This document shows, piece after piece, positions 2,697 to 51,739 of a stretch of 64,000 nucleotides of DNA; within the stretch, counting starts at the first letter, position 1, and each line of letters begins with the position of its first letter. The stretch is from Kitasatospora sp. NBC_01246. GTDB taxonomy: Bacteria; Actinomycetota; Actinomycetes; Streptomycetales; Streptomycetaceae. The DNA lies in NCBI RefSeq assembly GCF_036226505.1, contig NZ_CP108484.1, positions 3,720,001-3,784,000 on the forward strand, given 5' to 3'. A program made the translations under genes and the position numbers. The notes under the pieces are model-generated. The model searched no databases. It had not been told where the DNA came from and saw only the letters and a list, made by a program, of their open reading frames with translations.

Positions 2697-4802
<2,106 letters not shown>

Positions 4803-43388: not shown

Positions 43389-44063
43389 TCAGGGCTCGTA
43401 CCGGTAGCCGAGACCGGGCTCGGTGATCAGGTGGCGCGGCCGGGCCGGATCGCGTTCCAGCTTGCGGCGCAGCCCCGCCAGGTAGACCCGCAGGTAGTTG
43501 CCGCGCCCCTCCTGCGCCGGGCCCCAGACCTCGCGCAGGATCCGCCGGCCGGGCACCAGGCGGCCGGGGTCGGCGAGCAGCAGCGCCAGGATCCGCCACT
43601 CGGTGGGGGTGAGCCGGACCGGGCCGTCCGGGCCGGTCACGGTGGTGGCGGCGAGGTCCACGGTGTGGGCGCCGATCACCCGCGCGGCCGGGGCCGGGCC
43701 GCCCGGCGGACGGCGCAGGACGGCGCGCAGCCGGGCCAGCAGTTCCTCCATCAGGAACGGCTTGGTGAGGTAGTCGTCGGCGCCGGCGTCCAGGGCGCCC
43801 ACCTTGTCGGCCGCGCCGGTGCGGCCGGAGAGCACGATGATCGGTACGGCGCTGCGGCTGCGCAGGCCCCGGATGACGTCCAGGCCGTCCAGGTCGGGCA
43901 GGCCCAGGTCGAGCAGGACGGCGTCGGGCGAGGTCCGGGCGGCGCGGTCCAGGGCCTCGCCGCCGCTGGCGGCCGTCCGGACGGCGTACCGGCGGGCGCT
44001 CAGGTTGATCCGCAGGGTACGCAGCAGCGCCGGTTCGTCGTCGACGACCAGGATCTCGCTCAT
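43389..44063 (-). CDS. kdpE: Response regulator KdpE
   Basis: 224 aa from the ATG at 44063 (MSEILVVDDEPALLRTLRIN). The OmpR-type receiver has Asp8-Asp9, phosphoacceptor Asp52 in VLLDLGLPDLDGLDV, and Lys in YLTKPF. The winged-helix domain contains VRLTPTEWRILALLLADPGR and NYLRVYLAGLRRKLERDPAR with EPGLGYRYEP at the end. Its start overlaps the kdpD stop (ATGA). It should activate the kdpFABC genes upstream in the same gene row. Confidence 0.96.
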   Translation of the reverse strand: MSEILVVDDEPALLRTLRINLSARRYAVRTAASGGEALDRAARTSPDAVLLDLGLPDLDGLDVIRGLRSRSAVPIIVLSGRTGAADKVGALDAGADDYLTKPFLMEELLARLRAVLRRPPGGPAPAARVIGAHTVDLAATTVTGPDGPVRLTPTEWRILALLLADPGRLVPGRRILREVWGPAQEGRGNYLRVYLAGLRRKLERDPARPRHLITEPGLGYRYEP

Positions 44064-46609
44064 GCGGGCGCTCCTCCCGGGTGGGCGGCGGGCAGGGTGA
44101 GCAGCATGGTGGTGCCGCCGCCGGGGGTGTCCTCGACCTCCAGGCCGCCGCCCATGGCCTCGGCGAGGCCGCGGGAGAGGGCGAGGCCGAGGCCGACGCC
44201 GGTGGTGTTGTCGGTGTCGCCGAGGCGCTGGAAGGGCAGGAAGACGCGGTCGCGGTCCTCGACGGCGATGCCGGGGCCGCGGTCGATCACCCTGACCTCG
44301 ACCTGGTCGCCGAGGTGGCTGGCGGCGACCAGGACCGGGGTGCCGGGGGCGGTGTGGCGCAGGGCGTTGGCGATGACGTTGGCCAGGACGCGCTCCAGCA
44401 GCGGCGGGTCGACCAGGACGGCCGGGACGCCCTCCTCGATGTCGAACGTGAGGTCGAACGGCCGTACCGGCGCGTACGGGTCGGGGAGGGTGTCCAGGGC
44501 CCGGGGCAGGATCTCGTCCAGGTGGGTCTCGGCGAGGTGGAGGGTGAGGGCCCCGGCCTGGAGGCGGCTCATGTCGAGCAGGTTGTCCACCAGCCGGGTG
44601 AGCTTGACCAGGGACTCGTCGGCGGTGGCCAGGAGTTCGGCCCGGTCCTCGGCGGAGAACTCGACGTCGGGGCTGCGCAGCGAGCCGACCGAGGCCAGGG
44701 CGGCGGCCAGCGGGGTGCGCAGGTCGTGGCTGACGGCGGCGAGCAGGGCGGTGCGCATCCGGTCGGCGGCCCTGATCGGTTCGACCTCGGCGGCCACCAC
44801 GGCGAGCCGGTCGCGTTCCAGCGCGGCGGCCACGTGGGCGGCGAACGCGGTGAGGACGCGCTGGTCGGCGGCGGGCAGCCGGCGGCCGGTGAGCGCCAGC
44901 AGGGCGTCGGCGCCGACCGGGACCTCGGTGGTCTCGCCGGGCCCGGCGGGCCCGCCCTCGCCGTCGCAGCGGGCCAGCACCGCGCCGCCGGTGCGTTCCA
45001 GCAGGGCGACGGAGTCCATCCCGAAGGCCGTCCGGGACTTCTCCAGCAGGGCGGGCAGGGCGTCGGCGCCGCGCAGTACGCTGCCGGCCAGGGTGGAGAG
45101 GGTCTCGGCCTCGGCGGTGGCCCGGGCGGCCCGGGTGGTGAGCCGGCCCGCGTGGTCGACCACGGTGGAGACGGTGAGCGCGACGGCGGCGAACACCAGC
45201 AGGGCGACGAGGTTGTTGGTCTCGCCGATGGTCAGGGTGTGCAGGGGCGGGATGAAGAAGTAGTTCAGCAGCAGCGAGGCGACGAGGGAGGCCAGCAGGG
45301 CCGAGGTGGCGCCGCCGAGCAGGGCGACGACGACCACGCCCAGCTGGAAGATCAGCGCGTCGGTGGTCAGGTTGACGGTGCCGCGGGACTGCGAGAGGCC
45401 GGCCGTCAGCAGCCAGGGCAGCACGAGTCCGGCGGCGTAGCCGGCGACGGTGCGGCGCCTGGAGTGGCGGCGGCCGAGCGGGGGCAGCCGGCCGCGGCCG
45501 GTGAACGCGTGGGTGACCATGTGGACGTCGATGTCCTCGGAGCCGTCCACGGTGGTCTCGCCGATGCCGGGGCCGGTGAGGAGCCGGGTGATCCGGCCGC
45601 GCCGGCTGGTGCCGAGGACGAGCTGGGTGGCGTCGTGGGCGCGGGCGAAGGCCAGCAGCGCGGTGGGGATGTCGTCGCCGACCACCACGTGGTAGCTGCC
45701 GCCCAGCGCCTCCACCAGCTGCCGCTGCTGGGCGAGCGCCCCCGAGGACGCCCCGGCCAGGCCGTCGCTGCGGGTGACGTGCACGGCGAGCAGGTCGCCG
45801 CCCGCCGTGCGGTCGGCGATCCGGGCGGCGCGGCGGATCAGCGTCTCGCCCTCGGGGCCGCCGGTGAGGGCGACCACCACCCGCTCGCGGGTCTCCCAGA
45901 CGCGGTCGATGCGGTGGCTGGCCCGGTAGTCGCGCAGCCCCTCGTCGACCCGCCCGGCCACCCAGAGCAGGGCGAGCTCGCGCAGGGCGGTGAGGTTGCC
46001 GACCCGGAAGTAGTTCGAGAGCGCGGCGTCCACTTTCTCCGCCCGGTAGACGTTGCCGTGGGCCATCCGGCGGCGCAGCGCCTGGGGGGCCATGTCGACG
46101 AGTTCGATCTGGTCGGCCCGGCGGACCACCTCGTCCGGGACGGTCTCGCGCTGGGGGATGCCGGTGATCTTCTGGACGACGTCGTTCAGCGATTCCAGGT
46201 GCTGGACGTTGACGGTGGTGATGACGTCGATCCCGGCGGCCAGCAGCTCCTCGACGTCCTGCCAGCGCTTGGCGTGCCGGCCGCCGGGGACGTTGGTGTG
46301 CGCGAGCTCGTCCACCAGCACCAGGGAGGGGCGGCGGGCGAGCAGCGCGTCGAGGTCCATCTCCTCGAACTCGGCGTCCCGGTAGAGCCGTCGGGCCCGG
46401 GGTGCGACGTCCAGGCCGTCGAGCATGGCCTCGGTGTGGCGGCGGCCGTGGCACTCGATGTAGCCGACCACCACCTCCGCGCCGCGGTCCTGTCTGCGCC
46501 TGGCCTCGTCCAGCATCCGGTAGGTCTTGCCGACACCGGGGGCGGAACCGAGGTACACCCTCAGCCGGCCGCGGTGGGGGCCGGTGCCGGGGGCGAGGTC
46601 GCGGGCCAT
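44060..46609 (-). CDS. kdpD: Sensor histidine kinase KdpD
   Basis: 849 aa from the ATG at 46609 (MARDLAPGTGPHRGRLRVYL); the frame is open to 46768 but that part is repetitive spacer. The KdpD domain has Walker A GSAPGVGKTYRMLDEARRR and LVDELAHTNVPGGRHAKRWQ. A USP-like domain follows (residues about 250-370), then four membrane helices (about 395-500), a GAF-like region, and the kinase core AVSHDLRTPLAAALASVGSL with NVIANALRHTAPGTPVLVAA and VIDRGPGIAVEDR. It senses K+ limitation or turgor and phosphorylates KdpE. Confidence 0.95.
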   Translation of the reverse strand: MARDLAPGTGPHRGRLRVYLGSAPGVGKTYRMLDEARRRQDRGAEVVVGYIECHGRRHTEAMLDGLDVAPRARRLYRDAEFEEMDLDALLARRPSLVLVDELAHTNVPGGRHAKRWQDVEELLAAGIDVITTVNVQHLESLNDVVQKITGIPQRETVPDEVVRRADQIELVDMAPQALRRRMAHGNVYRAEKVDAALSNYFRVGNLTALRELALLWVAGRVDEGLRDYRASHRIDRVWETRERVVVALTGGPEGETLIRRAARIADRTAGGDLLAVHVTRSDGLAGASSGALAQQRQLVEALGGSYHVVVGDDIPTALLAFARAHDATQLVLGTSRRGRITRLLTGPGIGETTVDGSEDIDVHMVTHAFTGRGRLPPLGRRHSRRRTVAGYAAGLVLPWLLTAGLSQSRGTVNLTTDALIFQLGVVVVALLGGATSALLASLVASLLLNYFFIPPLHTLTIGETNNLVALLVFAAVALTVSTVVDHAGRLTTRAARATAEAETLSTLAGSVLRGADALPALLEKSRTAFGMDSVALLERTGGAVLARCDGEGGPAGPGETTEVPVGADALLALTGRRLPAADQRVLTAFAAHVAAALERDRLAVVAAEVEPIRAADRMRTALLAAVSHDLRTPLAAALASVGSLRSPDVEFSAEDRAELLATADESLVKLTRLVDNLLDMSRLQAGALTLHLAETHLDEILPRALDTLPDPYAPVRPFDLTFDIEEGVPAVLVDPPLLERVLANVIANALRHTAPGTPVLVAASHLGDQVEVRVIDRGPGIAVEDRDRVFLPFQRLGDTDNTTGVGLGLALSRGLAEAMGGGLEVEDTPGGGTTMLLTLPAAHPGGAPA

Positions 46610-46619
46610 GGGCGCTGCT

Positions 46620-46709
46620 CTTTCGTCTTCGTACGGGGGTCGGGAATTACGTCTTTCGTCTTCGTACGGGGTCGGGGCGTGGTGCTTTCGTCTTCGTACG
46701 GGGGTCGGG
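46620..46709. repeat. Three direct repeats between kdpC and kdpD
   Basis: CTTTCGTCTTCGTACGGGG-type units start at 46620, 46653 and 46685, each about 25 bp, spaced 33 and 32 bp apart (about three helical turns). They fill most of the 178-nt kdpC-kdpD gap. If kdpD started further upstream they would encode repeated PYEDER peptides, but no ribosome site supports that. Confidence 0.8.
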
Positions 46710-46787
46710 GCGTACGGCGGCCGACCCGGGCGCGGGGTGGTGCCCCGGCCCGGGTCGGCCTGTCTCACGGCGCTGCCTGCCTGGCCG

Positions 46788-47420
46788 TCACTTCTGGTGT
46801 GCCAGAGCCGTGTTGAGAAGGACGATGTTGACTCCCGGCTGGCCGAGGAAGCCCAGCGAGCGGCCCTCGGTGTACCTGTCGATCAGCTTCTCCACCGTCT
46901 CCACCGGCAGGTTCCGGGCCCCGGCGACCCGGGCGGCCTGCTCCTCGGCGTAGGCGACCGAGATGTGCGGGTCGAGGCCCGAGCCGGAGGCGGTGACCGC
47001 GTCCACCGGCACCTTCGCCGGGTCGACGCCGTCGAACGCGGCGACCGCGGCGCGGCGGTCCTCGATCGCCTTGGCGAGGTCCTCGCTGTTCGGGCCCAGG
47101 TTGGAGGCGCCGGAGCTCTTCGGGTCGTACCCGCCGGCGGAGGGCCGGGGCTGGAACCACTTCGGGTCCGGCCGGGCCGCCTCGTTCTCGTCGCCGGGGT
47201 TCCGCTTGGGCAGGTCGTAGGTCTGGCCCAGCAGACTGGAGCCGACCTCCTTGCCGTCGGCGGTCTTCACGATCGAGCCGTTGGCCTTGTCGGCGAAGGC
47301 GACCTGGCCGATGCCGGTGACCAGCAGCGGGTAGGCGAGGCCGAGGATCACCGTCATCACCAGCAGCATCCGCAGTGCGGTGAGGTGCGTGCGCACGGTG
47401 GTGGGCAGGGGCTTGGACAT
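46788..47420 (-). CDS. kdpC: K+-transporting ATPase subunit KdpC
   Basis: 210 aa. One N-terminal membrane helix (RMLLVMTVILGLAYPLLVTG) is followed by an outside domain with the conserved GSSLLGQTYDLPKRNP, GSNLGPNSEDLAKA-like segment (SGASNLGPNSEDLAKAIEDR), DAVTASGSGLDPHISVAYAE and GQPGVNIVLLNTAL. It assists KdpB in ATP binding. It follows kdpB by 15 nt. Confidence 0.97.
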   Translation of the reverse strand: MSKPLPTTVRTHLTALRMLLVMTVILGLAYPLLVTGIGQVAFADKANGSIVKTADGKEVGSSLLGQTYDLPKRNPGDENEAARPDPKWFQPRPSAGGYDPKSSGASNLGPNSEDLAKAIEDRRAAVAAFDGVDPAKVPVDAVTASGSGLDPHISVAYAEEQAARVAGARNLPVETVEKLIDRYTEGRSLGFLGQPGVNIVLLNTALAHQK

Positions 47421-47435: not shown

Positions 47436-49552
<2,117 letters not shown>

Positions 49553-49553
<1 letters not shown>

Positions 49554-51214
49554 CAGGAGAGACCTTCCGCGATCGGCCCGAGAGCCAGGGCCGGGAAGTA
49601 GGTGAGACCGACGACGATCAGGACGACGCCCGACAGCAGGCCCACGAACAGCGGCTTGTGGGTGGGCAGGGTGCCCGGGGTGGCGGGGACGGGCTGCTGG
49701 CTCGCGAGCGAGCCGGCCAGCGCCAGGACGAAGACCATCGGCAGGAACCGGCCGAACACCATCGCCAGTCCGATCGCGGTGTCGTACCAGTCGGTGTTCA
49801 CCGTGATCCCGGCGAACGCCGAACCGTTGTTGTTCGCGCCCGAGGTGAACGCGTACAGCACCTCGGAGAAGCCGTGCGCACCGGAGTTGAGCATCCCGGC
49901 CCGCTCACCGGGCAGCGCCATCGCCACCCCGGTGCCGACCAGCACCAGCGTCGGCGTGGTCAGGATGTAGAGCGAGGCGAACTTCATCTCCCGCCCGCCC
50001 AGCTTCTTGCCCAGGTACTCCGGGGTGCGGCCGACCATCAGCCCGGCCACGAAGACCGCCACGATCGCTAGCACCAGCATCCCGTACAGGCCCGAACCGG
50101 TGCCGCCGGGCGCGATCTCGCCCAGCATCATGTTGAACATCGTCAGCCCGCCGCCGAACGGCGAGTACGAGTCGTGGAAGGAGTTCACCGCGCCGGTCGA
50201 GGTGAGCGTCGTCGAGGCCGCGAACAGGCTGGACGCCGCGATGCCGAACCGCTGCTCCTTGCCCTCCATCGCGCCGCCGGCCGCCTGCATCGCGGTACCG
50301 GAGTGCCGGGCCTCGGAGAGGGTGATCAGCGCGACCGAGGCGACCCAGAACAGGCCCATCACCGCGACGATGGCGTAGCCCTGCCGGTGGTCGCCCACCA
50401 TCTTCCCGAAGGCGCGCGGCAGCGCGAAGGGGATCAGCAGGATCAGGAAGACCTGCAGCAGGTTGGTGAACCCGGTGGGGTTCTCGAACGGGTGCGCCGA
50501 GTTGGCGTTGTAGAAGCCGCCGCCGTTGGTGCCCAGCAGCTTGATGACCTCCTGCGAGGCCACCGCCCCGCCCGGGACCGCCTGCGGGTCGCCCGCCAGG
50601 GTGGTCACCTCGTGGAACCCGTGGAAGTTCTGCACCACCCCGTTCGCCACCAGGACCAGCGCGAAGACGATCGAGACCGGCAGCAGCAGCCGCAGCGTGA
50701 TCCGGGTCAGGTCGACCCAGAAGTTGCCCACCCGGTCCGTCCGGTTGCGGGTGAAGCCCCGGATCAGCGTGGCCACCACGGCGATGCCGACGGCGGCGGA
50801 GACGAAGTTCTGCACCGCCAGGCCCGCCATCTGCGCCAGGTGCCCCATCGCGGACTCACCGCTGTAGGACTGCCAGTTGGTGTTGGCGGTGAAGGAGATC
50901 GCGGTGTTCCACGCCTGGTGCCCCGACATCTGCGGGACCCCGAGGCTCAGCAGCAGGTGTCCCTGGAGCCGGATCAGGCCGTAGAGGAAGAGCACCGAGA
51001 CGGCCGAGAAGGCCAGCACCGAGCGCAGGTAGACCGGCCAGCGCTGGTCGGCGTCGCCGTCCACCCCGATGACCTTGTACAGGCCGCGTTCGGCTCTGAG
51101 GTGCTTGGACGTGGTCAGGATCCGGGCGACGTAGTCGCCCAGGGGCCGGTAGCACAGGGCCAGCGCGCCCACCAGGGCGACGACCTGCGACCAGCCCGCG
51201 AGAACGGAACCCAT
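49553..51214 (-). CDS. kdpA: K+-transporting ATPase subunit KdpA
   Basis: 553 aa with about ten membrane helices. The four selectivity-filter loops of the K+ channel superfamily are visible, including [39 protein letters not shown] and [15 protein letters not shown]. This is the channel-like subunit that binds K+ with high affinity. It starts 1 nt after the kdpF stop codon. Confidence 0.98.
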
Positions 51215-51215
51215 G

Positions 51216-51305
51216 TCAGAACTTCTCCGGGTAGATCAGCGCGACGACGAGGTAGCCGACGAGGGCGACGGCCACGATGAGACCTGCGACGTTCTCGGCG
51301 CTCAC
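51216..51305 (-). CDS. kdpF: K+-transporting ATPase subunit KdpF
   Basis: 29 aa from the GTG at 51305 with GGAG five bases upstream. It is a single membrane helix ([20 protein letters not shown]) ending IYPEKF, the standard KdpF form. KdpF stabilises the KdpABC complex. Its start overlaps the stop of a 27-residue ORF (GTGA), and its stop almost touches kdpA. Confidence 0.93.
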
Positions 51306-51385
51306 AGCTTCTCCACCCCCCGCGCGATCAGGGCGATGACGGCGAACACGGCGACCGTGACACCGACGTGGATGAGATCGGACAT
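51302..51385 (-). CDS. 27-residue membrane mini-protein translationally coupled to kdpF
   Basis: ATG at 51385, stop 51302-51304, with GGTGGAG just upstream. The product begins MSDLIHVGVTVAVFAVIALI and ends ARGVEKL: a single hydrophobic helix with a short charged tail, about the same size as KdpF but not obviously its copy. The stop overlaps the kdpF GTG start. Too short for most gene callers. Position, ribosome site and coupling argue that it is made with the Kdp complex; its role is unknown. Confidence 0.75.
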   Translation of the reverse strand: MSDLIHVGVTVAVFAVIALIARGVEKL

Positions 51386-51504
51386 GGGCTCCACCACAGT
51401 GGTTCGGAGGTGGCCGCGGCCCGGCCCCTGCGGGCGGTCGACGCGGCACCGGCGGTGGGCCGGCCTCGCCAGCCAACCGCGCCCACGGACCGTCACCGCC
51501 GTTC

Positions 51505-51554
51505 TTGACGCCCTCCATACGGCGCCCGTTCGATTGTTGACGGGCTCCATACGG
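51505..51554 (-). promoter_or_regulatory. Direct repeats upstream of the kdp operon, candidate KdpE sites
   Basis: On the minus strand CCGTATGGAGCCCGTCAA (51537-51554) and CCGTATGGAGGGCGTCAA (51505-51522) are 18-bp copies differing at two bases, 32 bp apart, that is on the same face of the helix. They lie 120-170 nt before the first ORF of the operon. On the plus strand each contains TTGACG. Confidence 0.6.
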
Positions 51555-51628: not shown

Positions 51629-51664
51629 CCGGGAGCCCCGGACCGCGTGGTCCGGGGCTCCCGG
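51629..51664 (-). terminator. Terminator between the first KimA-like gene and the kdp operon
   Basis: Perfect 16-bp stem CCGGGAGCCCCGGACC with its complement and loop GCGT. It ends the transcript of the KimA-like gene (stop 51751) and shields the kdp promoter. Confidence 0.85.
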
Positions 51665-51739
51665 CGTGGGATCGGGGCTCTCGGCGTGGTCCGGGGCTCC
51701 GGCGTGGTCCGGGGCTCTCGGCGTGGTCCGGGGCTCTCG
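51645..51739. repeat. Five tandem 18-20 bp repeats
   Basis: Units of GCGTGGTCCGGGGCTCTCG start at 51645, 51664, 51684, 51702 and 51721, nearly identical. The first overlaps the terminator stem, so the array looks like repeated duplication of one terminator arm. Confidence 0.85.

Follow-up and report, generated by a model that had tools for sequence, protein, structure and literature searches.

The window analysed here, a 64,000-nucleotide stretch of the Kitasatospora sp. NBC_01246 genome, carries the genes of a kdp operon on its minus strand (Table 1). Upstream of kdpF lies an open reading frame running from ATG to TGA, which we call S. The initial annotation had described this frame as 27 residues long, with a GGAG site of its own and an end that overlaps the start of a 29-residue kdpF in the letters GTGA, and reading the minus strand bears out each of these points. 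The possible ribosome-binding site GGTGGAG is separated from the ATG by three bases, a rather short spacing, and KdpF is recognized by its Pfam family. The coordinates first given for S were right for the minus strand, but they came with no strand, and the plus strand at these positions encodes a different peptide. One base separates the kdpF stop codon from the ATG of kdpA. On the Kyte-Doolittle scale, the only hydropathy measure used, the best 15-residue mean is 2.85 for S and 3.01 for KdpF. The reading frame of S is open over 881 codons in the window, as happens in GC-rich DNA, and the existence of the frame alone is therefore worthless as evidence, leaving conservation as the test.

Table 1. 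Position of S within the kdp operon and features nearby, in window coordinates
Feature	Position	Strand	Description and basis
kdpE	about 43389-44063	-	Downstream of kdpD; identity by eye, start inferred
kdpD	44060..46768	-	Frame only (start approximate); identity by eye
kdpC	46788..47420	-	ORF; named from position and sequence
kdpB	47436..49553	-	ORF; named by eye from P-type ATPase sequence (DKTGT)
kdpA	49553..51214	-	553 aa; PF03814, E 4.2e-232; also NCBIfam search
kdpF	51216..51305	-	29 aa; Pfam PF09604 (Potass_KdpF), E 4.9e-10; TIGR02115
GTGA overlap	51302..51305	-	S stop TGA (51304-51302) and kdpF GTG start (51305)
S	51302..51385	-	27-codon gene; one predicted membrane helix; conserved with coding signature; kdpA-linked
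GGTGGAG, possible ribosome-binding site of S	51389..51395	-	Sequence; permissive SD-like pattern in 60/94 relatives
Candidate KdpE box CCGTATGGAGGGCGTCA	51506..51522	-	137 nt before S start
Second candidate KdpE box CCGTATGGAGCCCGTCA	51538..51554	-	169 nt before S start

Loci were collected from the best 80 of 295 relatives of the window kdpA in named genomes, all of them Streptomycetaceae except for one record titled Saccharothrix and one MAG, and from searches at the level of genus, phylum and class. This gave 251 loci, seven plasmid loci among them, of which 249 were usable and 232 unique. The close set, at the level of the Streptomycetaceae, comprises L001-L110 plus the window locus and contains 94 unique loci. 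S is kept in all 94 and starts exactly 27 codons before its stop (ATG in 93, GTG in one), as assigned by a script that favoured a 27-codon start wherever one was present. Loss of the frame or of its ATG in related species had been named in the initial annotation as grounds for giving up the gene, and a conserved frame of 25-30 codons with synonymous-site bias before kdpF as the thing to look for; the frame is retained throughout, and the bias is there. Pooled over pairs that are not independent of one another, pairwise dN/dS in the close set is 0.41 in the frame of S; the two alternative frames give 1.41 and 1.35. Across 46 disjoint close pairs, differences at codon positions 1, 2 and 3 number 88, 65 and 157 (p = 2e-10), while the 81 bases upstream of S, compared under the identical pairing rule, give 659, 642 and 644 at 48% identity. 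The corresponding counts are 81, 41 and 141 for kdpF (45 pairs) and 213, 141 and 425 for the start of kdpA (46 pairs). The presence of this bias in S and its absence immediately upstream indicate that protein-level constraint begins at the ATG of S. As read from these alignments, S is coding and under purifying selection on its amino acids. Residues D3, F14, G23 and L27 are invariant across the 80 unique DNA versions of the close set, and some residues are common to several phyla, D3 being found in at least 90% of 35 aligned homologues. A permutation test for helical periodicity in the conservation along S was not significant (p = 0.60), and a clear binding face is therefore not apparent.

To follow S beyond the close set, we ran S and KdpF profiles on 242 unique kdpA upstream regions of 600 nt, together with reverse-strand and shuffled decoys, the best of which scored 7.3 bits with the S profile. 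The two genes usually occur together (206 of 242 regions), and each is also found alone, S in six regions and KdpF in 24; six regions have neither. S is present in 94/94 loci of the close set, in 108/131 of the remaining loci that the phylum- and class-level searches supplied, a group with some members of the same family as the close set, and in 10/17 plasmid records and E. coli taken together. For the other 23 of these 131 actinobacterial loci, and for E. coli MG1655, the profile search turned up no S in the 600 nt before kdpA. Ten further plasmid records brought the plasmid kdp loci, chosen out of 464, to 26, and S scored above decoys in 14 of them. These are plasmids of Streptomyces, Azospirillum, Caballeronia, Mycetohabitans, Burkholderia stagnalis, Novosphingobium, Rhizobium, Sinorhizobium, Acetobacter and Paracoccus, along with two Deinococcus plasmids, Subdoligranulum (21.5 bits) and Bacillus badius (16.8 bits). 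Homologues of S thus score in Alpha- and Betaproteobacteria and in Deinococcus, and weakly in Bacillota; the rhizobial, Burkholderiales and Deinococcus plasmid loci covered here carry it. No S score exceeded the decoys in the other 12 plasmids, from Halobacterium, Picosynechococcus, Lactiplantibacillus, Listeria, Bacteroides, Klebsiella, S. epidermidis, Parabacteroides, Acinetobacter, Niallia, E. raffinosus and Duffyella; counted by phylum, two of seven Bacillota loci and neither of two Bacteroidota loci score. Look-alike frames below the scoring level were seen by eye in Listeria, Bacteroides and Niallia. The absence of S from E. coli and from some actinobacterial and plasmid loci means that the pump does not need S everywhere. 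Damaged copies further show that individual lineages can lose it: in L275 the frame of S is disrupted near the C-terminus, and L116, scored as S-positive in the 242-region count, has a truncated S with a different end, in both cases beside kdpA and an intact-looking kdpF.

The suspicion that ordinary gene callers skip this gene proved well founded. In the PLSDB gene table, which is itself incomplete, S is listed in one of 11 S-carrying annotated plasmid kdp loci and kdpF in eight of 11, the single listed S being an Azospirillum "hypothetical protein" (WP_275451547.1). In Rhizobium johnstonii (L252, 3208-3363), a hypothetical protein of 51 residues is annotated between kdpA and kdpB.

The tie between S and Kdp holds genome-wide. 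A search of 246 Actinomycetes genomes returned 105 S matches at E<=0.001 in 100 genomes, and all 105 sit no more than 600 nt upstream of a same-strand kdpA match. At this threshold S is found in 100/121 genomes with kdpA, where some of the kdpA matches are fragments only, and in 0/125 genomes without it. With the looser threshold of E<=0.05, 12/122 matches lie elsewhere and seven kdpA-lacking genomes have a weak match. Each of the 70 genomes searched in the window's own genus contains an S match at E<=0.001; the copy in G065 is disrupted. Linkage to kdpA, absence where kdpA is absent and amino-acid selection on the product are what a subunit of the pump should display, and S displays all three. 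The same linkage would also fit the main rival to a subunit, a Kdp-dedicated membrane regulator that is not a stoichiometric component and instead acts on the return of K+, either by binding KdpD or through inhibition or modulation of KdpB. In its favour, a mycobacterial two-hybrid study has reported an interaction between KdpF and KdpD (PMC3618439), and post-translational control of the pump has been reported for KdpD (PMC11018627). S nonetheless remains beside kdpA in rearranged operons, and we consider a regulator of this kind unlikely, if the strongest of the alternatives.

The rearrangements are informative about what is being kept. In most loci kdpF lies between S and kdpA. The frames of S and kdpF overlap by 4 nt in 186/206 loci with both genes (84/93 in the close set), and the two are therefore probably translationally coupled. 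A permissive SD-like pattern is present inside the 3′ end of S in 93/94 close-set loci. Both features would also be expected if S were a leader only, whose translation brings ribosomes to kdpF by coupling while the peptide itself is idle. For such a leader position should matter and sequence should not, whereas it is the sequence of S that is conserved and the position that varies. Seven of 93 close-set loci retain S despite a gap of 73-112 nt to kdpF. In Burkholderia stagnalis the order is kdpF-S-kdpA, with S on the 3′ side of kdpF, and two Deinococcus loci have the order kdpB-S-kdpF-kdpA-kdpC. S stands directly before kdpA with no KdpF match in L137, L223, L234, L238 and L245, where the start of kdpA was extrapolated from tblastn. 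Because S also occurs apart from kdpF, in its place or downstream of it, S is not merely a leader peptide, and its retention despite gaps and rearrangement indicates that the peptide, and not its position, is under selection and travels with kdpA. Selection at the amino-acid level and the residues shared across phyla, D3 above all, speak against an idle peptide as well, and we regard this explanation as improbable.

Several of these loci deserve description in their own right. A repeat-like insert is located exactly at the S-kdpF overlap in L003, L005, L007, L013, L026 (73-nt gap) and L012 (100-nt gap), and in most of them it reads GAGCGCAGCGAGCGAACC...GCGCGAAGCGCC...GAGCGCAGCGAGG. These are six of the seven gap loci, and in them kdpF begins at a new ATG preceded by an SD-like word. 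The genome of the window contains no match to a pattern related to this insert. Family f77 contains loci with S alone before kdpA (L223, L234, L238, L245) and loci with kdpF alone (L222, L236), an apparent either/or replacement of the two genes; L137, from family f39, likewise has S without kdpF.

We also followed three S matches, noticed among those within the genus, on contigs without a kdpA row. Two of them (L273 and L274) lie at the ends of their contigs; the third, L272, seems to be a genuine orphan. Here an intact S (3935-4018, minus strand) without kdpF or kdpA sits between ORFs that by eye resemble a cation/proton antiporter and an APC-type permease; its GTGA end survives, and the short frame after it is not a kdpF. 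This copy, beside ORFs that look like other ion transporters, is the one observation in favour of S having a function of its own, as a toxic or generic membrane peptide merely parked at kdp. Yet the orphan resembles a kdp relic and is probably what is left of a lost operon, and the 125 kdpA-lacking genomes without a match at the stricter threshold point the same way, which makes a parked gene very improbable. In another locus (L276, G381:C2:22900-25500) the kdp operon has decayed, with kdpA fragments that run into kdpB-like sequence and an intact S upstream. That S is a chance frame in GC-rich DNA, as its long open frame might suggest, is refuted by the fixed length of 27 codons, a codon bias that ends at the ATG, the homologues in other phyla and the linkage to kdpA.

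Neither Pfam nor NCBIfam contains a family that S matches at E<=10, and a search of PDB sequences with the S profile gave no match at that threshold. Ten diverse homologues likewise have no match to KdpF, or to any family above cut-off; below cut-off, two of them match DUF6069 (E 0.05) and SA1362 (E 0.092). S is no recognizable member of the KdpF family (PF09604/TIGR02115), as there is no profile match and hhalign detected no homology. KdpF is nevertheless among the closest likenesses, being a single-helix mini-protein of about 25-30 residues that is encoded just upstream of kdpA and often left unannotated. The signatures differ, D3...F14...G23-V-E-K/R-L in S and Y-L-V-x-A-L-I-x-P-E-K/R-F in KdpF.

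In Clostridium acetobutylicum, Treuner-Lange reportedly described orfZ and orfY in 1997, a pair of short hydrophobic frames that precede kdpA, and the idea of mini-ORFs at this position is therefore not wholly new. They are likened to S here by description, and that orfZ is a homologue of S is a guess. A later paper gives the operon of this organism as kdpZYABCXDE (PMC5401905). The clostridial plasmid of our set (Subdoligranulum) has its S-like ORF before kdpF. Small membrane accessory proteins such as AcrZ, MgtS and CydX are known from other transporters and oxidases. Like them, S is predicted to have one helix, is linked to an operon or partner and is easily missed, and it would act alike; the comparison is by description, and the partner of S differs in being the Kdp system. 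We found no name for S among the matches listed from the open-licence literature. The main text of an S. meliloti Ribo-seq paper (PMC10117765) does not contain "kdp", and S is not mentioned in the available portions of two Deinococcus papers (PMC9650054, PMC5716572) or of the Pro-SMP finder paper (PMC10903887). S would thus make a new family of a known kind, the transporter micro-subunits, as opposed to a new kind of system.

The region upstream of S contains a candidate KdpE operator in the form of two direct repeats, CCGTATGGAGnnCGTCA, 32 bp apart (51506-51554, minus strand). A KdpE-like box pattern, written after the sequences had been seen, occurs in 40/94 relatives as compared to 0/94 shuffled sequences, and five of the 94 loci have two boxes. 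In M. smegmatis, the KdpE site is given as CCGTAAAGAAACCATCAAGGCC and the kdpF transcript as having a 120-nt 5′ leader (PMC5401905), and a kdpF leader of ~100 nt is described for Caulobacter (PMC8552747). By length, both leaders have room for the S frame. The M. smegmatis KdpE 22-mer is found upstream of S with no more than seven mismatches in 54/212 loci compared to 1/212 shuffled; the window matches it with eight mismatches only, a level that shuffles reach too (10/212 at eight or fewer). The 22-mer, which was to locate the M. smegmatis kdp locus and its published 5′-RACE site, occurs in 0/248 genomes of the genus to which G107 belongs. An Rfam scan of the region returned five matches, all below gathering scores, and no credible RNA family. 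Farther upstream, a permease-like gene is followed by a long hairpin rich in GC (51629-51664) and by repeats of a GTCCGGGGCTC...CGGCGTG unit, and the whole stretch (51629-51720) is perhaps the terminator region of that gene.

The initial annotation had proposed a second Kdp mini-subunit, and this proposal is strengthened by a gene that is conserved in every close-set locus, tied to kdpA genome-wide and present in other phyla. Our reading is that S is a translated single-span protein dedicated to Kdp, with its helix at the KdpA/KdpF side, to which we assign a probability of about two in three. Its translation and its physical membership in the complex are what we infer from the conservation and linkage of the gene. 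We hypothesize that S and kdpFABC share one K+-regulated transcript, with the 4-nt overlap coupling its translation to that of kdpF. By the positive-inside rule, the acidic N-terminus with D3 would face outward and the K/R-rich C-terminus inward. The helix would then pack as an additional transmembrane segment against the KdpA side of the pump (KdpA/KdpF), a placement suggested by the fact that S moves with kdpA. There it may stabilise or tune the pump by analogy with KdpF, for which a stabilising role in the complex, as a structural chaperone, has been suggested (PMC12629597). S is probably an overlooked extra piece of the Kdp pump that E. coli lacks. More tentatively, and at somewhat less than even odds, we speculate that Kdp outside the enterobacteria is often a five-part system (S-F-A-B-C), in which S and KdpF are alternative or complementary at the KdpA side, lineages keep both, either or neither, and S adds a regulatory or stability property absent in E. 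coli.

KdpFABC is a textbook P-type ATPase that has been studied mainly as the E. coli complex. To our knowledge, all purified Kdp complexes and structures come from E. coli, and the lack of S in this organism could account for its having been missed in structural and biochemical studies. Outside the enterobacteria, kdp mutants and reconstitutions may lack a component.
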